A DNA stretch of 64,000 nt. Source: Streptomyces fradiae ATCC 10745 = DSM 40063 (lineage in GTDB: Bacteria > Actinomycetota > Actinomycetes > Streptomycetales > Streptomycetaceae). The stretch is taken from assembly GCF_008704425.1 (NCBI RefSeq), contig NZ_CP023696.1, positions 6,550,501-6,614,500 on the forward strand. Reading direction: 5' to 3'. This document shows, in pieces, positions 5,775-13,016 of the stretch. The notes under the pieces are model-generated. The model was not told the DNA's origin and did no database searches. It saw only the letters and a list, made by a program, of their open reading frames with translations. The position numbers and the translations under genes are program-made. How positions within the stretch are numbered: the first letter of the stretch is position 1; each line of letters opens with the position of its first letter.

Positions 5775-7301
5775 ATGGGACAGCTCCCCTCTCCGCTCCA
5801 CCCCGCACGCACCCGCCGCGGCGGACGTGTCCGGCGCCGGCTCGCCACCGCCGCGGCGGCACTGGCCCTCTCGGCCGGCCTCACGGCGGCGGGCCCGCAC
5901 GCGTCCGCCGCCGGCCCGGCGGCCACGGGCCCGCACGCGTCCGCCGCCGGCCTGACCCAGGTCACCGGCTTCGGCTCCAACCCCGGGAACCTGTCCATGT
6001 ACACCCACGTCCCCGACGGCCTGCCCGCCGGCGCCCCGCTCGTCGTCGCCCTGCACGGCTGCACCCAGAGCGCGAGCGACTACCACGCCGGGTCCGGCTG
6101 GCCGCGCATCGCCGACCGCGACGGCTTCGCCCTGGTCTTCCCCCAGACGACCGGGGCCAACAACGCGAACTCCTGCTTCAACTGGTTCGACCCGGCGGAC
6201 AGCGCACGGGACCGGGGCGAAGCACTGTCGATCCGCCAGATGGTCGACAAGGCCGTCGCGCTGTACGGCAGCGACACCGGCCGGGTCTACATCACGGGCC
6301 TCTCCGCGGGCGGCGGCATGACCGCCAACATGCTGGCCGCCTACCCCGACGTCTTCGCGGGCGGCGCCGTCGCCTCCGGGCTGCCCGCGTCCTGCGCGAC
6401 CACCCTGACCGCCGCGTACACCTGCATGTACAGCCCCCCGGACCGGACCCCGGCCCAGTGGGGCGCGCTTGTGCGCTCCGCCGCTCCCGCCGGAACCTCC
6501 GCCTGGCCCCGCGTGGCGGTCTGGCAGGGCACCGCGGACACCACGGTCGCCCCGGCCAACGCGGCGGAGCTGCGCGACCAGTGGACCGACGTCTGGGGCG
6601 TCGGCCAGACGCCCTCCCGCACCGCGGCGCTCGGTGGCGGGACGACGCTGGACGAGTACGACGACCCCTCGGGGCGGCCCGCCGTGCGGGTCTACACCGT
6701 CGCGGGCATGGCCCACGGCCTCGCCGTCGACCCCGGCAGCGGCGCCGACCAGTGCGGTACCGCCGGCACCTACTACCTCGACACCATCTGCTCCAGTCAC
6801 CACACCGCCCTCTTCTGGGGACTGGACCGCGAGGGCGACGGCGGCGATCCGGGCACCCTGCCCGCGCCCACGGGGCTGGCCCTCGCGGGGACGACCGACA
6901 CGACCGCGACCCTGAGCTGGGGCGCGGTGAGCGGCGCGGCCGCCTACGAGGTGCACCGCGACGGCACGAGGACGGGCACCACCACGTCGACCTCCCACAC
7001 CGACACCGGACTGGCCACCGGCACGACGTACACGTACACCGTCGCCGCCGTGGACGCGGCCGGCGTGCCGGGGCCGGTCTCCTCGCCGGTCACCGCCACG
7101 ACCACCGGTCACACGCCCGCATGCCACACCGCGAGCAACTACGCGCACACCGTCGCCGGCCGTGCCCACCAGAGCGGCGGCCACACCTACGCCGCCGGCT
7201 CCGGCCAGGCGATGGGGCTGTGGAACACCTTCACCACGCGCACCCTGAAGGAGACCTCCCCCGGCTACCACGTCGTCGCCGACGCGGGCTGCCCGGCCTG
7301 A
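5775..7301 (+). CDS. Extracellular poly(3-hydroxybutyrate) depolymerase with FnIII and substrate-binding domains
   Basis: Secreted depolymerase of 508 aa that cleaves short-chain-length polyhydroxyalkanoate. Order of parts: signal peptide (about 1-46); catalytic type-1 domain (about 60-350) with oxyanion motif HGC (94-96), lipase box GLSAG (175-179, S177), D255 in GTADTT and H314 in GMAHG; a fibronectin type III linker (about 363-444); and a C-terminal domain (about 448-508; starts CHTASNYAHT) like the PHB-binding domains of these enzymes. The ATG at 5775 follows AGGAGGCAG. It is divergent from the oligomer hydrolase and fits the neighbouring dehydrogenase and transporter as the first step of PHB scavenging. 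Confidence 0.9.
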   Translation: MGQLPSPLHPARTRRGGRVRRRLATAAAALALSAGLTAAGPHASAAGPAATGPHASAAGLTQVTGFGSNPGNLSMYTHVPDGLPAGAPLVVALHGCTQSASDYHAGSGWPRIADRDGFALVFPQTTGANNANSCFNWFDPADSARDRGEALSIRQMVDKAVALYGSDTGRVYITGLSAGGGMTANMLAAYPDVFAGGAVASGLPASCATTLTAAYTCMYSPPDRTPAQWGALVRSAAPAGTSAWPRVAVWQGTADTTVAPANAAELRDQWTDVWGVGQTPSRTAALGGGTTLDEYDDPSGRPAVRVYTVAGMAHGLAVDPGSGADQCGTAGTYYLDTICSSHHTALFWGLDREGDGGDPGTLPAPTGLALAGTTDTTATLSWGAVSGAAAYEVHRDGTRTGTTTSTSHTDTGLATGTTYTYTVAAVDAAGVPGPVSSPVTATTTGHTPACHTASNYAHTVAGRAHQSGGHTYAAGSGQAMGLWNTFTTRTLKETSPGYHVVADAGCPA

Positions 7302-7560: not shown

Positions 7561-7576
7561 ATACCCCCCGGGGCAT
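7561..7576. promoter_or_regulatory. CsoR/CstR-type operator, site 1
   Basis: ATACCCCCCGGGGCAT is an imperfect inverted repeat of the C-tract/G-tract kind bound by CsoR-family repressors. It lies 47 bp upstream of a better copy and 95 bp upstream of the first rhodanese gene. Confidence 0.6.
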
Positions 7577-7607
7577 AAAGCGGATCCTGTTACGGTTGGG
7601 TCCAGGC

Positions 7608-7623
7608 ATACCCCCCTGGGTAT
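7608..7623. promoter_or_regulatory. CsoR/CstR-type operator, site 2
   Basis: ATACCCCCCTGGGTAT is a near-perfect inverted repeat (ATACCC/GGGTAT) just ahead of the rhodanese operon, and it resembles CstR and CsoR boxes. A possible -35 (TTGGGT, 7596-7601) and -10 (around 7620) would flank it, so a bound repressor would block polymerase. A CsoR-family gene lies at 12681 and a third site at 12209. Confidence 0.7.
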
Positions 7624-7655
7624 TTCTGAACGGCAAGTGAGCAGGAGTTCCCCGC

Positions 7656-8006
7656 ATGGTTCCCGAGATCGACCAGCAGCGGTTCGCCGAGGCGCACGCG
7701 GCGGGCGGCCTCGTCGTCGACGTCCGCAACAGCGGCGAGTACCGCGCCGGCCACGTCCCCGGCGCCCGATCCGCACCCCTCCCCGACCTCCCCCTGGCCC
7801 TCGCCGGGCTGCCGAGGAACCGGCCGGTCTACGTGATCTGCCAGAGCGGCGGCCGCAGCGCGCAGGCGACCTCACTCCTCCGCCAGTTGGGTTACGACGC
7901 CCACAGCGTGAACGGAGGCACCGCCGCCTGGATCGAAGCGGGCCGCCCCGCGGTCACCGGCGCCGCGCCCGGCGCCCCCACCGCCACTCCGGAGGAAGCC
8001 CGATGA
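7656..8006 (+). CDS. Single-domain rhodanese (sulfurtransferase)
   Basis: Cytosolic 116-aa rhodanese-fold protein that probably carries sulfane sulfur as a cysteine persulfide. VVDVRNSGEYRAGHVPGA is the usual start of the fold and CQSGGRS is the active-site loop with its cysteine. The ATG at 7656 is preceded by GCAGGAG. It is the first gene of an operon and its TGA overlaps the ATG of the next gene (ATGA), indicating translational coupling. Confidence 0.9.
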   Translation: MVPEIDQQRFAEAHAAGGLVVDVRNSGEYRAGHVPGARSAPLPDLPLALAGLPRNRPVYVICQSGGRSAQATSLLRQLGYDAHSVNGGTAAWIEAGRPAVTGAAPGAPTATPEEAR

Positions 8007-9517
8007 TCACCGTTCTGCCCGTCGAGACCCCCGGCCTGGGCGACCGCACCTACCTCGCCCACGACGGCTCCGCAGCCCTGGTGGTCGACCCCCAGCGCGA
8101 CTACGACCGCGTCACCGCGCTGGCCGAGGCCGCCGGGGTGCGGATCACCCACGTGTTCGAGACGCACATCCACAACGACTACGTCACCGGTGGTCTGGCC
8201 CTGGCCCGCGAGGTGGGCGCCCAGTACCTGGTGAACGCCGACGACGAGGTCTCCTACGAGCGGACCCCCGTGCACGACGGCCAGGTGATCGAGGTCGGCG
8301 ACACCATGCGGGTGCGGGTGATCCACACCCCGGGCCACACCCACACCCACCTGTCCTACGCCCTGGAGGCCGACGGGGAGCAGGTCGCGGTGTTCACCGG
8401 AGGCTCCCTGCTGTACGGCACCACCGGACGGCCCGACCTGCTGGGGCCGGACCACACCGACACCCTGGTGCGGGCCCAGTGGCACTCGGCGCACCGGCTG
8501 GCGAAGGAACTGCCGGACGAGACCGCCGTCTACCCCACCCACGGGTTCGGGTCGTTCTGCTCGGCGACCCAGGCGGCCGGCCTGTCCAGCACCATCGGCC
8601 AGGAGAAGCGGACGAACACCGCCCTGACCGCCGGCGAGGAGGCGTACGTCGGGCAGCTCCTGGCGGGACTGGACGCCTACCCGGCGTACTACGCCCACAT
8701 GGGCCCGGCCAACTCCCACGGCCCCGGCGCGCCGGACCTGTCCCCGCCGTCCGTGGCGGACCCGGCCGAACTGCGGCGCAGGATCGAGGCCGGCGAGTGG
8801 GTCGTGGACCTGCGCGACCGCACCGCCTTCGCCGCCGGGCACCTCGCGGGCAGCCTCAACTTCGGTCTGGACGGTCCCTTCGTCACCTACCTGGGCTGGC
8901 TGATCCCGTGGGGCACCCCGGTCACCCTGCTCGGCGAGACCGCGGGCGACGTCGCCGAGGCCCAGCGCGAGCTGGTCCGCATCGGCATCGACCGCCCGGC
9001 CGCCATGGCCACCGGCGGACCGGAGGACTGGACCGGCGGCGCGCCCCCGGCCGCCTACGACCGGGCCACCTTCGGCGACCTGAAGGCCGCGCTGGCCGGC
9101 GGCGACGGCATCGTCGTCCTGGACGTGCGCCGCGACCAGGAGCGCGCCGAGGCCCACATCCCCGGCACGGTGCACATCCCGATCCACGAGGTGCCGGGCC
9201 GGCTCGCCGAGATCCCCGAGGGCCGCGTGTGGGTGCACTGCGCCGGCGGCTACCGCGCCGGGGTCGTCGCCGCACTGCTCCACGCCCGCGGCCGCGACGT
9301 CGTCGCCGTCGACGACAGCTTCGACACCGCCCGCGACCTGGGCCTGTGCGCCCCCGCGCACCCCGCCGCGGCCCGCGCCGCCACGGAGACCCCCGAGGCA
9401 TCCGTGACTCCCGGGTCCGCCGAGACCCCCGAGACCCCCGAGACCCCCGCGTCCCGCGGGACGCTCCCCACCCCCACCCCCACCACCGACGACGACCGTC
9501 AGGAGATCACCATATGA
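8003..9517 (+). CDS. CstB-like metallo-beta-lactamase/rhodanese fusion (persulfide dioxygenase family)
   Basis: Protein of 504 aa with the CstB domain order: an MBL domain (about 1-235), an inactive rhodanese domain (about 255-345, no active-site cysteine) and an active rhodanese domain (about 355-450, loop CAGGYRAG, C413). CstB enzymes oxidise persulfides and transfer sulfur. The metal site is unusual. The first motif is H55-x-H57-x-D59-Y60, where HxHxDH is canonical, and the usual metal-ligand Asp (FTGD) is glycine here (FTGGS). Actinobacterial relatives with THIHNDY and FTGGS may form a distinct subfamily. The C-terminal 50 residues are Pro/Thr/Glu-rich. It overlaps both neighbours by ATGA. 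Confidence 0.82.
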   Translation: MITVLPVETPGLGDRTYLAHDGSAALVVDPQRDYDRVTALAEAAGVRITHVFETHIHNDYVTGGLALAREVGAQYLVNADDEVSYERTPVHDGQVIEVGDTMRVRVIHTPGHTHTHLSYALEADGEQVAVFTGGSLLYGTTGRPDLLGPDHTDTLVRAQWHSAHRLAKELPDETAVYPTHGFGSFCSATQAAGLSSTIGQEKRTNTALTAGEEAYVGQLLAGLDAYPAYYAHMGPANSHGPGAPDLSPPSVADPAELRRRIEAGEWVVDLRDRTAFAAGHLAGSLNFGLDGPFVTYLGWLIPWGTPVTLLGETAGDVAEAQRELVRIGIDRPAAMATGGPEDWTGGAPPAAYDRATFGDLKAALAGGDGIVVLDVRRDQERAEAHIPGTVHIPIHEVPGRLAEIPEGRVWVHCAGGYRAGVVAALLHARGRDVVAVDDSFDTARDLGLCAPAHPAAARAATETPEASVTPGSAETPETPETPASRGTLPTPTPTTDDDRQEITI

Positions 9518-10095
9518 CCGCCCCCACGACCCCCCGCGGCCTGACCGTAGGCGAACTGCGCACCCGGCTCGAGTCGGCCGCCCCGCCCCGGCTGCTCGAC
9601 GTCCGCTCGCCCGCCGAGTTCGAGGGGGCGCACATCCCCGGGTCCTACAACGTCCCCCTGGACACCCTGCGCGAGCACCGCGAGGAGCTGACCCGGCACC
9701 TGGACACCGACGTGGTCCTGGTCTGCCGCTCCGGACAGCGCGCGGGCCAGGCCGAACGCGCCCTCGCCGAAGCCGGGCTGCCCGGCCTCGCGGTCCTGTC
9801 GGGCGGCATGTCCGCCTGGGAGAAGTCCGGTGCCCCGACCAACTACGGGCAGGAGCGCTGGGACATGGAGCGCCAGGTCCGCCTCGTGGCCGGCTCCCTG
9901 GTCCTGGTGGGCGCCCTCGGCAGCTTCGTCCTCCCCGGCCTCCAGGCGCTGTCCGCGTTCGTCGGCGGCGGGCTGGCCTTCGCCGCGATCAGCAACACCT
10001 GCGCCATGGGGGTGCTGCTGTCGCGGATGCCGTGGAACCGCAGGCCGTCCTTCGATCCGGCCAAGGCCGTCGCACAGCTCGCCGAGGGAAGGTGA
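9514..10095 (+). CDS. Rhodanese fused to a two-helix membrane domain (YgaP-like)
   Basis: Protein of 193 aa: an N-terminal rhodanese domain (about 9-110; active loop CRSGQRAGQ) followed by two hydrophobic helices (about 120-160) of the DUF2892/YgaP type. This would anchor a sulfurtransferase at the inner face of the membrane, next to the sulfite exporter encoded downstream. The ATG at 9514 overlaps the previous stop (ATGA) and has AGGAG upstream. It is co-transcribed with the persulfide-handling genes. Confidence 0.88.
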   Translation: MTAPTTPRGLTVGELRTRLESAAPPRLLDVRSPAEFEGAHIPGSYNVPLDTLREHREELTRHLDTDVVLVCRSGQRAGQAERALAEAGLPGLAVLSGGMSAWEKSGAPTNYGQERWDMERQVRLVAGSLVLVGALGSFVLPGLQALSAFVGGGLAFAAISNTCAMGVLLSRMPWNRRPSFDPAKAVAQLAEGR

Positions 10096-10099
10096 CCGG

Positions 10100-10969
10100 G
10101 TGACCGCCATGACGCTGACCCTCGTCCTGGCCCTCGCGCTGCTGGTCGGCCTCTCCCTCGGCCTCCTCGGTGGAGGCGGCTCCATCCTGACCGTGCCGTT
10201 GCTCGTGTACGTGGCCGGGATGGACGCCAAGGAGGCCATAGCGACCTCCCTCTTCGTCGTCGGCGTCACCTCCGCCGTGGGCATGATCAACCACGCCCGC
10301 GGCGGCCGGGTCCGCTGGCGCACCGGTGTCCTGTTCGGAGCGGCCGGCATGGCCGGCGCGTACACCGGCGGGCTCGTCGGCGGCCACATCCCCGACACGG
10401 TCTTGCTGATCGCCTTCGCGGTCATGATGATCGTCACAGCCGGCGCCATGCTCCGGGGACGCCGCGAGGTCGACCCCGACCGGGCGCACCGGCAGATCCC
10501 GGTGGGGCGGGTGCTGCTGGACGGCGCGGCCGTCGGCCTGGCCACCGGCCTGGTCGGCGCGGGCGGCGGCTTCCTCGTCGTACCCGCGCTGGCGCTGCTG
10601 GGCGGGCTCCCGATGCCGGTGGCCGTCGGCACCTCGCTGCTGGTCATCGCGATGAAGTCCGCGGCGGGCTTCACCGGATACCTGTCGACCGTCAAGATCG
10701 ACTGGTCTCTGACCCTCGCGGTCACCGCCTTCGCGGTCGTCGGCAGCCTCGTCGGGGCGCGGCTGGCCGGGCGTGTCCCCGCGCACGTCCTCTCCCGGCT
10801 CTTCGCCTGGTTCGTGCTGGCCATGGGCGCCTTCGTCCTGGTCCAGCAGGCCCCCGCCCACATCGGCGTCCCGATCCTCGCCGCCCTCGCCTCCCTGGGC
10901 GCGGGAGCGGGTGTCTGCTACGGCTTCGTCGCCCGCTGCCCACTGCGGCGCGCCGTCCAGAGGACCTAG
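10100..10969 (+). CDS. TauE/SafE-family sulfite (sulfonate) exporter
   Basis: Membrane permease of 289 aa with about eight transmembrane helices in two similar halves. The glycine-rich motif GLLGGGGSILTVPLLVY recurs in variant form as GLVGAGGGFLVVPAL, as usual for TauE/SafE. It probably exports sulfite or thiosulfate formed by persulfide oxidation. The GTG at 10100 is chosen because GAGGGAAGG precedes it; an ATG at 10109 is possible. It starts 4 bp after the YgaP-like gene. Its TAG stop lies inside the 6-bp target duplicated by an IS481-family element, so the reading frame is unharmed. Confidence 0.88.
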   Translation: MTAMTLTLVLALALLVGLSLGLLGGGGSILTVPLLVYVAGMDAKEAIATSLFVVGVTSAVGMINHARGGRVRWRTGVLFGAAGMAGAYTGGLVGGHIPDTVLLIAFAVMMIVTAGAMLRGRREVDPDRAHRQIPVGRVLLDGAAVGLATGLVGAGGGFLVVPALALLGGLPMPVAVGTSLLVIAMKSAAGFTGYLSTVKIDWSLTLAVTAFAVVGSLVGARLAGRVPAHVLSRLFAWFVLAMGAFVLVQQAPAHIGVPILAALASLGAGAGVCYGFVARCPLRRAVQRT

Positions 10970-10970
10970 C
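10965..10970. repeat. Target-site duplication, left copy (CCTAGC)
   Basis: CCTAGC directly flanks the left end of the IS and is repeated at the right end (12043-12048). It contains the tauE stop codon. Confidence 0.85.
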
Positions 10971-12042
10971 TGTTCTGTCCCGGGAGGTTGTGGACGGGTG
11001 ATGCAGGTCTCGGCTGAGGGATCTTGAAATGGGTGAGGGCCTTCTGGCCTGGTGTGGATTGCGACATCTGCACCGGCGACCAGAAAGGCCCTCGTGCCCC
11101 ACCGTAATGCACCCCTGACCGAGACCGGACGGCTGCGCCTGGCCCGCTGCGTGGTCAAGGACGGCTGGCCGCTTCGGCGGGCCGCCGAACGTTTCCAGGT
11201 CTCACCCACCACCGCCCATCGATGGGCTGCCCGCTACCGGGCCATGGGCGAGGCCGGGATGGGCGACCGTTCCTCCCGTCCGCACGCAAGCCCGCGCCGG
11301 ACCCCGACCCGCACCGAACGCCGGATCATCAAGGTCCGCCTCATCCGCCGGTGGGGGCCGGCCCGCATCGCCCACCTCCTGGACCTGGTGCCCTCCACGG
11401 TCCACCGCGTGCTGACCCGCTTCGGGCTGGCCCGCCTGACCTCCCTGGACCGGGCCACCGGCCGTGTCATACGACGCTACGAACGCGACCGGCCCGGCGA
11501 ACTCGTGCACGTCGACATCAAGAAACTCGGCAACATCCCCGACGGCGGCGGCCACAAGACCCTCGGCCGCCAAGCCGGCCGCAAGACGAAGTCCGGCGTC
11601 GGCTACAGCTACATCCACACCGCCGTCGACGACCACTCCCGTCTCGCCTACAGCGAGATCCTGGCCGACGAGAAGAGGGAGACCGCCACCACCTTCTGGC
11701 AGCGGGCCCACGCCTACTTCGCCTCATGCGGGATCACGGTGCAGCGGGTCCTGACCGACAACGGCTCGTGCTACAGATCCCACGCCTGGCGCGACGCGCT
11801 GGCGGCGGCCGGGATCACCCACAAGCGAACCCGGCCCTACCGGCCCCAGACCAACGGCAAGGTCGAACGCTTCAACCGCACCCTGCTCGACGAATGGGCC
11901 TACGCCCGCCCCTACCGCTCAGAGCAGGAACGACGCGATGCCTTCCCCGACTGGCTGCATACCTACAATCACCACCGCGGACACACCGCGCTCGCAGGCA
12001 AACCACCCGCCAGCCGCGTCCCCAACCTCACAGGGCAATACA
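10971..12042 (+). mobile_element. IS481-family insertion sequence, apparently intact
   Basis: A 1,072-bp element with terminal inverted repeats of about 23 bp. The left end starts TGTTCTGTCCCGGGAGG and the right end finishes CACAGGGCAATACA, with most positions matching. The ends have the TGT...ACA form, and a CCTAGC duplication flanks the element. It encodes one full-length transposase. It lies between the tauE stop codon and the original downstream hairpin, splitting tauE from its terminator but breaking no gene. The intact frame and perfect duplication suggest a recent insertion. Confidence 0.87.
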
Positions 12043-12047
12043 CCTAG
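11094..12047 (+). CDS. IS481-family transposase
   Basis: DDE transposase of 317 aa. An N-terminal helix-turn-helix region (CVVKDGWPLRRAAERFQVSP) is followed by the rve integrase core: HVDIKK (first Asp), LTDNGS (second Asp) and NGKVERFNRT (Glu). The GTG at 11094 (VPHRNAPLTE) is preferred because relatives start there; an upstream start at 11052 is open. The TAG stop is not part of the element. The last sense codon spans the IS/target junction and the stop is read from the duplicated target CCTAGC. Confidence 0.92.
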   Translation: MPHRNAPLTETGRLRLARCVVKDGWPLRRAAERFQVSPTTAHRWAARYRAMGEAGMGDRSSRPHASPRRTPTRTERRIIKVRLIRRWGPARIAHLLDLVPSTVHRVLTRFGLARLTSLDRATGRVIRRYERDRPGELVHVDIKKLGNIPDGGGHKTLGRQAGRKTKSGVGYSYIHTAVDDHSRLAYSEILADEKRETATTFWQRAHAYFASCGITVQRVLTDNGSCYRSHAWRDALAAAGITHKRTRPYRPQTNGKVERFNRTLLDEWAYARPYRSEQERRDAFPDWLHTYNHHRGHTALAGKPPASRVPNLTGQYT

Positions 12048-12048
12048 C
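12043..12048. repeat. Target-site duplication, right copy (CCTAGC)
   Basis: Second copy of the 6-bp duplication. It supplies the transposase stop codon (TAG at 12045-12047). Confidence 0.85.
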
Positions 12049-12065
12049 GCCTTCTTCTCCGGCCC

Positions 12066-12102
12066 CCGCCGCCCCGGCGCCCACAGTGCGTCGGGGCGGC
12101 GG
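12066..12102 (+). terminator. Hairpin, original terminator of the rhodanese-tauE operon
   Basis: An 11-bp perfect stem (CCGCCGCCCCG / CGGGGCGGCGG) around a 15-nt loop. Without the IS it would sit 18 bp past the tauE stop, as expected for an operon terminator. There is no U-run, which is usual in Streptomyces. Confidence 0.6.
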
Positions 12103-12179
12103 TGCGCCAAGCCGCGGACGCCGCGCATCCCACGGCGGACGGCAGCCGCTCACCTCGGCGCAATGCCCCATCCGGGCAC

Positions 12180-12205
12180 GGAATGCCCCGCCCGGTCGAG
12201 GCGTT
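12180..12205 (+). promoter_or_regulatory. Sigma-R-type promoter of the thioredoxin gene
   Basis: GGAAT (12180-12184), an 18-bp spacer, then GTT (12203-12205, within GCGTTG). This matches the GGAAT-N18-GTT consensus of the disulfide-stress sigma factor SigR, which drives trx genes in Streptomyces. A CsoR/CstR-type operator begins 3 bp downstream, overlapping the expected transcription start. Confidence 0.65.
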
Positions 12206-12208
12206 GAT

Positions 12209-12222
12209 TACCCCAGGGGGTA
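12209..12222. promoter_or_regulatory. CsoR/CstR-type operator, site 3
   Basis: TACCCCAGGGGGTA is a close inverted repeat just downstream of a sigma-R-like promoter and ahead of the thioredoxin-cstR pair. It matches the two sites upstream of the rhodanese operon, so the repressor probably controls both transcription units and itself. Confidence 0.7.
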
Positions 12223-12270
12223 TAAGTCGCCCCCCGTACCCGTCCCACCCACCGCAGAAGGAGTCACCCC

Positions 12271-12639
12271 ATGAGCACCGTCGACCTCACCGCGGCGAAC
12301 TTCGAGACCACCGTCACCGGCAACGACATCGTCCTCGTGGACTTCTGGGCCTCCTGGTGCGGACCCTGCCGGATGTTCGCCCCCGTCTACGAGCGGGCCT
12401 CCCAGGCCCACCCCGACGTCGTCTTCGGCAAGGTCGACACCGAGTCCGAGCGGGACCTGGCCGCGGCGGCGCAGATCACCTCGATCCCCACCCTGATGGC
12501 CTTCCGCGAGGGCCACCTGGTCTTCTCCCAGCCCGGCGCGCTGCCGCCCCAGGCCCTGGAGCAGGTCATCACCGCTGTGCGCGGCCTCGACATGGACGAG
12601 GTGCGCGCGTCCCTCGCCACCCGCGGCCCCGGCCGGTGA
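12271..12639 (+). CDS. trxA: Thioredoxin
   Basis: Cytosolic thiol-disulfide reductant of 122 aa with the canonical WCGPC active site (in VLVDFWASWCGPC), the cis-proline motif SIPTLMAF and normal thioredoxin length. The ATG at 12271 follows AGAAGGAG. In this setting it probably reduces protein persulfides or regenerates sulfurtransferases. It is the first gene of a two-gene unit with the CstR-like repressor and has a sigma-R-like promoter plus a repressor site. Confidence 0.92.
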   Translation: MSTVDLTAANFETTVTGNDIVLVDFWASWCGPCRMFAPVYERASQAHPDVVFGKVDTESERDLAAAAQITSIPTLMAFREGHLVFSQPGALPPQALEQVITAVRGLDMDEVRASLATRGPGR

Positions 12640-12680
12640 CCGCGACCGGCCCCCGGCCGGCTCTTCGAAAGGAACCCCCC

Positions 12681-12947
12681 ATGGTCCAGCTCCCCGCCGA
12701 CCAGGTGCGGTCGGCCGCCAACCGCCTCAAGCGCGCCCAGGGCCAGCTCGCCGGTGTCGTCCGCATGCTGGAGGAAGGGCGCGACTGCGAGGACATCGTC
12801 ACCCAGCTCGCCGCCGTCAACCGCGCACTGGACCGGGCCGGCTTCGCCATCGTCGCCAGCGGACTCAGGCAGTGCCTCGCCGAGGAGGGCGGAGCCGACA
12901 GCCTCGACACCCGGAAGATGGAGAAGCTCTTCCTCTCCCTCTCCTGA
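12681..12947 (+). CDS. CstR-type (CsoR family) persulfide-sensing repressor
   Basis: All-helical repressor of 88 aa from the CsoR/RcnR family, which binds C-tract/G-tract inverted repeats. Both conserved cysteines are present (C36 in RDCEDIV, C65 in LRQC). The copper-ligand histidine expected four residues before the second cysteine is glycine (G61). Cysteines without the histidine are the mark of CstR-like proteins that sense sulfane sulfur, not copper. The ATG at 12681 follows AAAGGAA. The persulfide-handling neighbours and three operator-like sites at 7561, 7608 and 12209 support this. Confidence 0.82.
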   Translation: MVQLPADQVRSAANRLKRAQGQLAGVVRMLEEGRDCEDIVTQLAAVNRALDRAGFAIVASGLRQCLAEEGGADSLDTRKMEKLFLSLS

Positions 12948-12993
12948 GCCCCGCCCTCCGGCGGCGGCCGAGCCCCGCCCTCCGGCGGCGGCC
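12946..12993 (+). terminator. Two tandem 24-bp hairpin repeats after cstR
   Basis: The 24-bp unit GAGCCCCGCCCTCCGGCGGC plus GGCC occurs twice in a row. Each copy folds on CCGCC-CTCC-GGCGG. The first copy overlaps the cstR stop codon. A tandem terminator is likely. Confidence 0.6.
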
Positions 12994-13016
12994 GGGCGGC
13001 TCAGGCCGCGGAGTGC

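Follow-up and report, generated by a model that had tools for sequence, protein, structure and literature searches.

Does a thioredoxin gene that heads the operon of a putative persulfide-responsive repressor answer to one thiol stress or to two? The question is raised by a locus of Streptomyces fradiae ATCC 10745 (DSM 40063) in the window, the whole stretch of 64,000 nucleotides analysed here, which covers positions 6550501-6614500 of a one-contig genome of 6.73 Mb (unmarked coordinates are window positions). The thioredoxin gene (trx, 12271..12639, + strand; WCGPC, PF00085, TIGR01068 over its cut-off) is followed, 41 bases further on and in like orientation, by cstR (12681..12947, + strand), which encodes a CsoR-family repressor of CstR type. 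Upstream of trx, a promoter element of the SigR (SigH) type stands immediately before a CstR operator. This shared promoter is well supported as anatomy, and its function is predicted.

The composite promoter upstream of trx-cstR

The SigR/SigH-type -35 element GGAAT (12180..12184) and -10 element GTT (12203..12205), both on the + strand, are separated by 18 bases, in agreement with the SigR/SigH consensus GGAAT-N18-19-GTT as given in the available parts of PMC9205884 and PMC10012870. Three bases follow, then TACCCC from 12209, and the operator itself (TTACCCCAGGGGGTAT, 12208..12223, + strand) has one mismatch to ATACC-N6-GGTAT, the site of S. coelicolor ScCsoR in the available text of PMC7533328. 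With GTT counted as -12 to -10, as in C. glutamicum numbering, the predicted start (~12215) falls at the operator centre. An earlier note on this DNA had placed three operators before the rhodanese operon and trx-cstR, with GGAAT-N18-GTT ending 3 bp before the third. Both statements were borne out, the operators at 7561 and 12208 (12209 in the note) having one mismatch each.

For comparison, 80 related loci were fetched via CstR similarity, with the promoter ignored; 13 of them (L005-L017) are Streptomyces relatives. The arrangement GGAAT-N18-G[T/C]T-N3-operator was matched by 14/14 Streptomyces promoters, counting that of the window. Mean pairwise identity among the 14 was 1.00 for GGAAT, 0.66 for the spacer, 0.95 for the -10 element, 0.38 for the 3-bp gap and 0.95 for the operator, against 0.43 and 0.46 for the 30-base flanks. 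These rows were found by an expression demanding GGAAT and parts of the operator, which matched 14/14 rows with none dropped, so the value of 1.00 for GGAAT reflects what the search expression itself demands. By selection, cstR is the next gene in the clusters of all 13 Streptomyces relatives, and trx precedes it in 12. At the remaining locus, L007 (S. pilosus, ~6920-7001), trx has been lost and the composite is kept immediately before cstR.

Conservation and specificity across actinobacteria

The promoter test took the 160 bases preceding trx; at loci with no same-strand trx upstream within 1.1 kb, it took those preceding cstR. The 80 loci were split into 36 trx-cstR loci, 43 controls (cstR without a same-strand upstream trx) and L007. 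A strict composite was a SigR-like GGAAT/GTT element with an operator abutting or overlapping it; the relaxed form also admitted GGAAC or GCT. The strict composite was present in 19/36 trx-cstR loci and the relaxed one in 26/36, versus 0/43 controls (0/36 and 0/7 in the two control sets). Streptomyces trx loci scored 10/12 strict and 11/12 relaxed, and non-Streptomyces trx loci 9/24 and 15/24; L007, without trx, scored 1/1. The background of GGAAT-N17-19-GTT was ~0.005 per 280 strand-bases in the 80 loci, trx promoters included. The pairing of a SigR-like element with an operator at trx exceeds chance.

Just two offsets of the operator from the -10 element were found, 3 bases downstream or 22-23 bases back. 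In the latter form the operator takes up the spacer, with AT common to operator and GGAAT. The downstream geometry occurs in Streptomycetaceae, Intrasporangiaceae and Dermacoccaceae (there in relaxed form) and the spacer geometry in Nocardioidaceae and Kribbellaceae (Kribbella). The trx gene tree (45 rows) was weak, with 27/42 inner branches left open, so no history was drawn from it, and a separate origin of each geometry is only a possibility.

Searches by pattern alone also returned trx. The strict Streptomyces pattern matched 8/392 genomes of the genus (control 0), and 8/8 matches precede trx-cstR. A looser pattern matched 7/296 genomes of the class (control 1); 6/7 precede trx, the gap being 2 to 6 bases long, and three of the six are without cstR within the stretch examined. 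In the genomes of 18 non-Streptomyces relatives, a search for the spacer form that allowed a loose gap gave 15 among the matches listed (two overlapping) and 1 in the control. Its right arm was GGTAT in 10 matches, some with a degenerate left arm. Directly downstream of 8 of these 10 lies trx, for the other two, L251 and L255, trx is known from a separate reading of the locus, and the spacing was N18-19 in 9/10 although N14-24 was allowed. One spacer-form match, L261, belongs to a trx at another site in the L028 genome, L028 itself being a control locus.

Two side observations concern gene order. In three loci of other families (L245, L246 and L247), trx has a SigR-like element and an operator, with no cstR within the stretch examined. 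In L024 and L072 a DUF302 protein (PF03625) is encoded between trx and cstR, and other non-Streptomyces loci have gaps of like size.

The sigma factor

A SigR/SigH-type factor is encoded in the genome (TIGR02947, 355.4 bits, cut-off 251.55; contig 4607279-4607839), the only one of sixteen matches to the SigH/SigR model to exceed the cut-off. A GGGAAT-N18-GTT site lies ~300 bases upstream of its gene, and genome-wide this pattern occurs at 17 places versus 3 for the control. The nearest trx paralogue, 62% identical to that of the window (contig 6384199-6384610, minus strand), also has GGGAAT-N18-GTT upstream, and no CstR operator was seen in its upstream DNA. A crude scan of 10900-13000 found no housekeeping (sigma-70-like) promoter. 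From these matches, SigR is the predicted sigma factor of trx-cstR.

The promoters of Streptomyces persulfide dioxygenase (pdo) genes were also considered as SigR targets, their spacer holding the operator; GGAAT there is ambiguous, and they were not counted. Among 85 listed matches to the pdo-type pattern in the genus (~24 for the reversed control), 38 were operator-like and 32/38 had exactly N18. Operator-N5-GTTAnnnT was present at pdo promoters in 93/392 Streptomyces genomes, the locus at 66848-66875 of the own genome among them, and GTTAnnnT is probably an extended -10. The GGA that completes a perfect GGAAT-N18-GTT was found in only 13/29 pdo-type loci read (30 were fetched, one being out of place). 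In the window GGAAT lies outside the operator, so the trx promoter is free of this ambiguity, which the Nocardioides spacer form partly shares. A separate motif, GGAATACCCTTTnTGTA..GTT, recurs in several Streptomyces genomes, for example in the match GGAATACCCTTTTTGTACCGTT.

The repressor and its operators

The cstR product has 88 amino acids and matches PF02583 with 81.3 bits (cut-off 22.8, E 7e-23). Reading of 12681-12947 agreed with the earlier note in finding a CsoR-family protein with C36, C65 and Gly at 61. Cys-Gly-Cys occupies these positions in 81/81 proteins (window and 80 relatives). The copper-type CsoR of the same genome has Cys-His-Cys at the equivalent positions, a copper-site signature that the window repressor, with Gly at 61, does not share; two further paralogues have Cys-Gly-Cys. 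The PF02583 fold, two conserved cysteines without the copper-site histidine, and operators before sulfur-detoxification genes mark the regulator as CstR-type, and it probably senses persulfides. The closest solved structures, 7mq1 to 7mq3, were deposited as copper-sensing repressor csoR and probably show a pneumococcal CstR. Copper CsoR itself was considered as the trx repressor and rejected for its differing signature (Cys-His-Cys) and site spacing, the site upstream of its own gene having one extra base between the arms.

With up to one mismatch, ATACC-N6-GGTAT occurs at 19 places in the 6.73 Mb genome, versus 4 for the reversed pattern used as control. The genome has three genes for CstR-like regulators, all with dioxygenase-like and rhodanese genes alongside, one in the window and the others at contig positions 66848-69948 and 5469226-5472160. 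Their clusters hold 9/19 operator matches, including 5/5 exact ones. The operators are near-identical, TACCCCAGGGGGTA being found also at contig position 66885; since three paralogues in one genome have such operators, cross-talk among them is likely.

The rhodanese operon and the IS481 insertion

The earlier note's CstR-type regulon is present, and its rhodanese operon proved larger than described, with a dioxygenase, a second rhodanese and TauE as well; an IS481 transposase gene separates TauE from trx. All features are on the + strand. Operator 1 (ATACCCCCCGGGGCAT, 7561..7576, one mismatch) and operator 2 (ATACCCCCCTGGGTAT, 7608..7623, exact) keep their positions in 11 relatives. Between them is TGTTACGGT (7588..7596), TGnTACsGT in the window and the same relatives, which is probably the extended -10 of a housekeeping promoter. 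Two operators flanking TGnTACsGT were found in 12/12 promoters examined (window and 11 relatives; L013 is without this gene and L017 was left out), and none of the 12 had a SigR-like element at this promoter.

The operon begins with a rhodanese gene (7656..8006, PF00581), followed by that of a persulfide dioxygenase-type protein (8003..9517), in which a metallo-beta-lactamase fold is combined with rhodanese stretches (PF00753, PF00581), a domain make-up like that described for SCO0618 in the available part of PMC7533328. Another rhodanese, which carries a YgaP-like membrane part (9514..10095; PF00581, PF11127), and a TauE/SafE-type sulfite exporter (10100..10969, PF01925; ATG at 10109 as a possible alternative start) complete it. 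The IS481-family transposase gene (11094..12047, NF033577) is a private insertion between TauE and trx, and no IS481 profile match was found in the Streptomyces relatives L005-L017. It separates trx-cstR from any read-through from the rhodanese operon. The stretch 10966-12047, from the TauE stop toward the trx promoter, has CTAG at either side, and no inverted repeats of at least 8 exact bases were found in the stretches compared.

Proposed regulation and alternative explanations

It is established in other systems that SigR is set free when disulfide stress oxidises RsrA. At the window locus a single SigR (SigH)-type promoter would transcribe trx-cstR, and CstR from this operon would bind the palindrome over the start site and block the SigR holoenzyme. 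Persulfides, and probably other thiol oxidants too, would modify C36/C65 and take CstR off the DNA. Full expression would thus require both active SigR and released CstR, a two-key gate to which we give somewhat better than an even chance; fresh CstR and thioredoxin would then close the response. CstR alone would control the rhodanese-dioxygenase-TauE operon, whose housekeeping-type promoter is accompanied by two operators. Because the predicted start is at the operator centre, bound repressor should stop open-complex formation. As no other promoter was seen, SigR activity without repressor release should give little transcript, and with cstR 41 bases after trx in the same direction, repressor synthesis should fall under the same gate. 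Thioredoxin is a plausible output, since its overexpression raised H2S release in S. coelicolor, according to the available text of PMC9952706. That actinobacteria place CstR operators on SigR/SigH-type trx promoters in two geometries, perhaps of separate origin, which fire only when both stresses coincide and in many loci would also drive the repressor itself, is a broader reading that we hold possible but somewhat doubtful as a whole.

Several observations weigh against the gate or the counts behind it. Locus L012 has GCT and the operator of L016 is degenerate, 10/36 trx loci are without the composite even in relaxed form, the control locus L070, with trx beside cstR on the opposite strand, has neither operator nor SigR-like element, and the distant trx of L080 has two operators but lacks a SigR-like element. 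A loose operator is present in only 21/43 control promoters, so the fairest control is 0/21; moreover, kinship among the loci makes their counts interdependent, and the controls differ in taxonomy as well. The same eight bases stand in the housekeeping-looking pdo promoters, so GGAAT-N18-GTT alone can mislead. Thiol oxidants may also release CstR, so the two keys may not be separable, and the three CstR-like paralogues share near-identical operators.

The stresses could instead act as independent inducers, with CstR merely dampening or each signal alone sufficing; persulfides would also oxidise RsrA, and disulfide stress would also oxidise CstR. Taken literally, the earlier note makes this claim, with trx induced by disulfide stress and also released from repression by persulfides. 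The sensors are both thiol proteins, and exposure to the thiol oxidant AGXX switches on the S. aureus CstR regulon, according to the available part of PMC6299908, which would suit such logic. An operator placed on the predicted start or within the spacer favours a block, as does the failure to find a second promoter, and the gate is preferred because the operator covers the predicted start site of the sole promoter seen. We regard independent induction as unlikely, if not strongly so. The note's joining of two circuits at trx is supported in part, by the conserved, trx-specific composite, Cys-Gly-Cys in all the repressors compared, the encoded SigR-type factor and the SigR-like promoter without an operator at the nearest trx paralogue; its wording, which implies independent inducers, fits less well with an operator over the start. 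It is a little less likely again that the trx operator is mainly bound by another CstR-like protein or by copper CsoR. The near-identical operators of the three paralogues, with TACCCCAGGGGGTA in two places, would allow this, whereas the adjoining cstR in 13/13 Streptomyces relatives (by selection), with trx preceding in 12, points to the neighbour, and the site upstream of copper csoR is one base longer between its arms. AdpA was also considered, as a sulfur route at trx, and rejected, its consensus having no match between 10064 and 13111.

Other doubts concern the promoter rather than the repressor. GGAAT-N18-GTT might be chance or a decayed relic, with trx-cstR depending on read-through or a housekeeping sigma factor instead. 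Just eight bases are fixed, the Streptomyces relatives share ancestry and do not count separately, and pdo promoters illustrate how a match of this kind can come about next to a probable extended -10. The element is nevertheless in all 14 Streptomyces promoters and in none of the 43 controls, it recurs in two geometries in different families, pattern-only searches return trx, and GGAAT in the window is outside the operator; a relic is quite improbable. Marginally more improbable still is that another extracytoplasmic function (ECF) sigma factor of similar consensus reads the promoter. The sixteen SigH/SigR-model matches leave candidates, although only one is over the cut-off, and in the available part of PMC10012870 GGAAC-N-GTT is the sequence recognised by SigE-type factors from other actinobacteria. 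The same source gives T at the last -35 place as the mark of SigH-only promoters in C. glutamicum, and thioredoxin, the classical SigR output, is the product of this gene as well as of its closest paralogue.

Comparison with known systems

Disulfide stress sensed by SigR/RsrA and reactive sulfur sensed by CstR have been studied apart in actinomycetes, and thioredoxin repairs both kinds of damage. A dual-reading promoter makes it testable whether cells count persulfides as part of disulfide stress, and in what way one start site combines a thiol repressor with an ECF sigma factor. It would also offer a possible reason for keeping a second, trxC-like thioredoxin beside a persulfide operon.

The earlier note had named Staphylococcus alone for sulfane-sulfur sensing by CstR; a Streptomyces circuit was already published (PMC7533328). 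In the available part of that paper, the homologous S. coelicolor regulator represses pdo and leaves DNA with polysulfide (Fig. 7 legend). The ScCsoR circuit, SCO0618-SCO0621, resembles that of the window in its repressor with two reactive cysteines, its dioxygenase, rhodanese and TauE genes and its ATACC-N6-GGTAT operators, two of them before pdo. As described there it is without thioredoxin or SigR, whereas in the window trx comes first in the repressor operon behind a SigR-like promoter. SigR/SigH trx promoters (PMC9205884, PMC10012870, PMC5472188, PMC3489674) likewise combine GGAAT-N18-19-GTT with a thioredoxin gene, and the available portions of these accounts mention no CstR operator, which the window has. 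The CsoR-family protein TTHA1953 of Thermus, which regulates sulfur oxidation genes (PMC10318464), is a CstR-like repressor acting on the thioredoxin gene soxW; it differs in serving the Sox pathway and in a regulator gene far from its targets, and the available text mentions no ECF promoter. S. coelicolor AdpA (PMC9952706, in its available part) provides polysulfide-induced thioredoxin genes in Streptomyces, by means of an activator and another site. Searches of an open-access library, in which most subscription papers are missing, turned up no account of a SigR/SigH promoter with a CstR operator on it. The Streptomyces CstR circuit, SigR control of trx and CstR-like control of a thioredoxin in Thermus are thus each known singly, and their conserved pairing at one promoter looks new.

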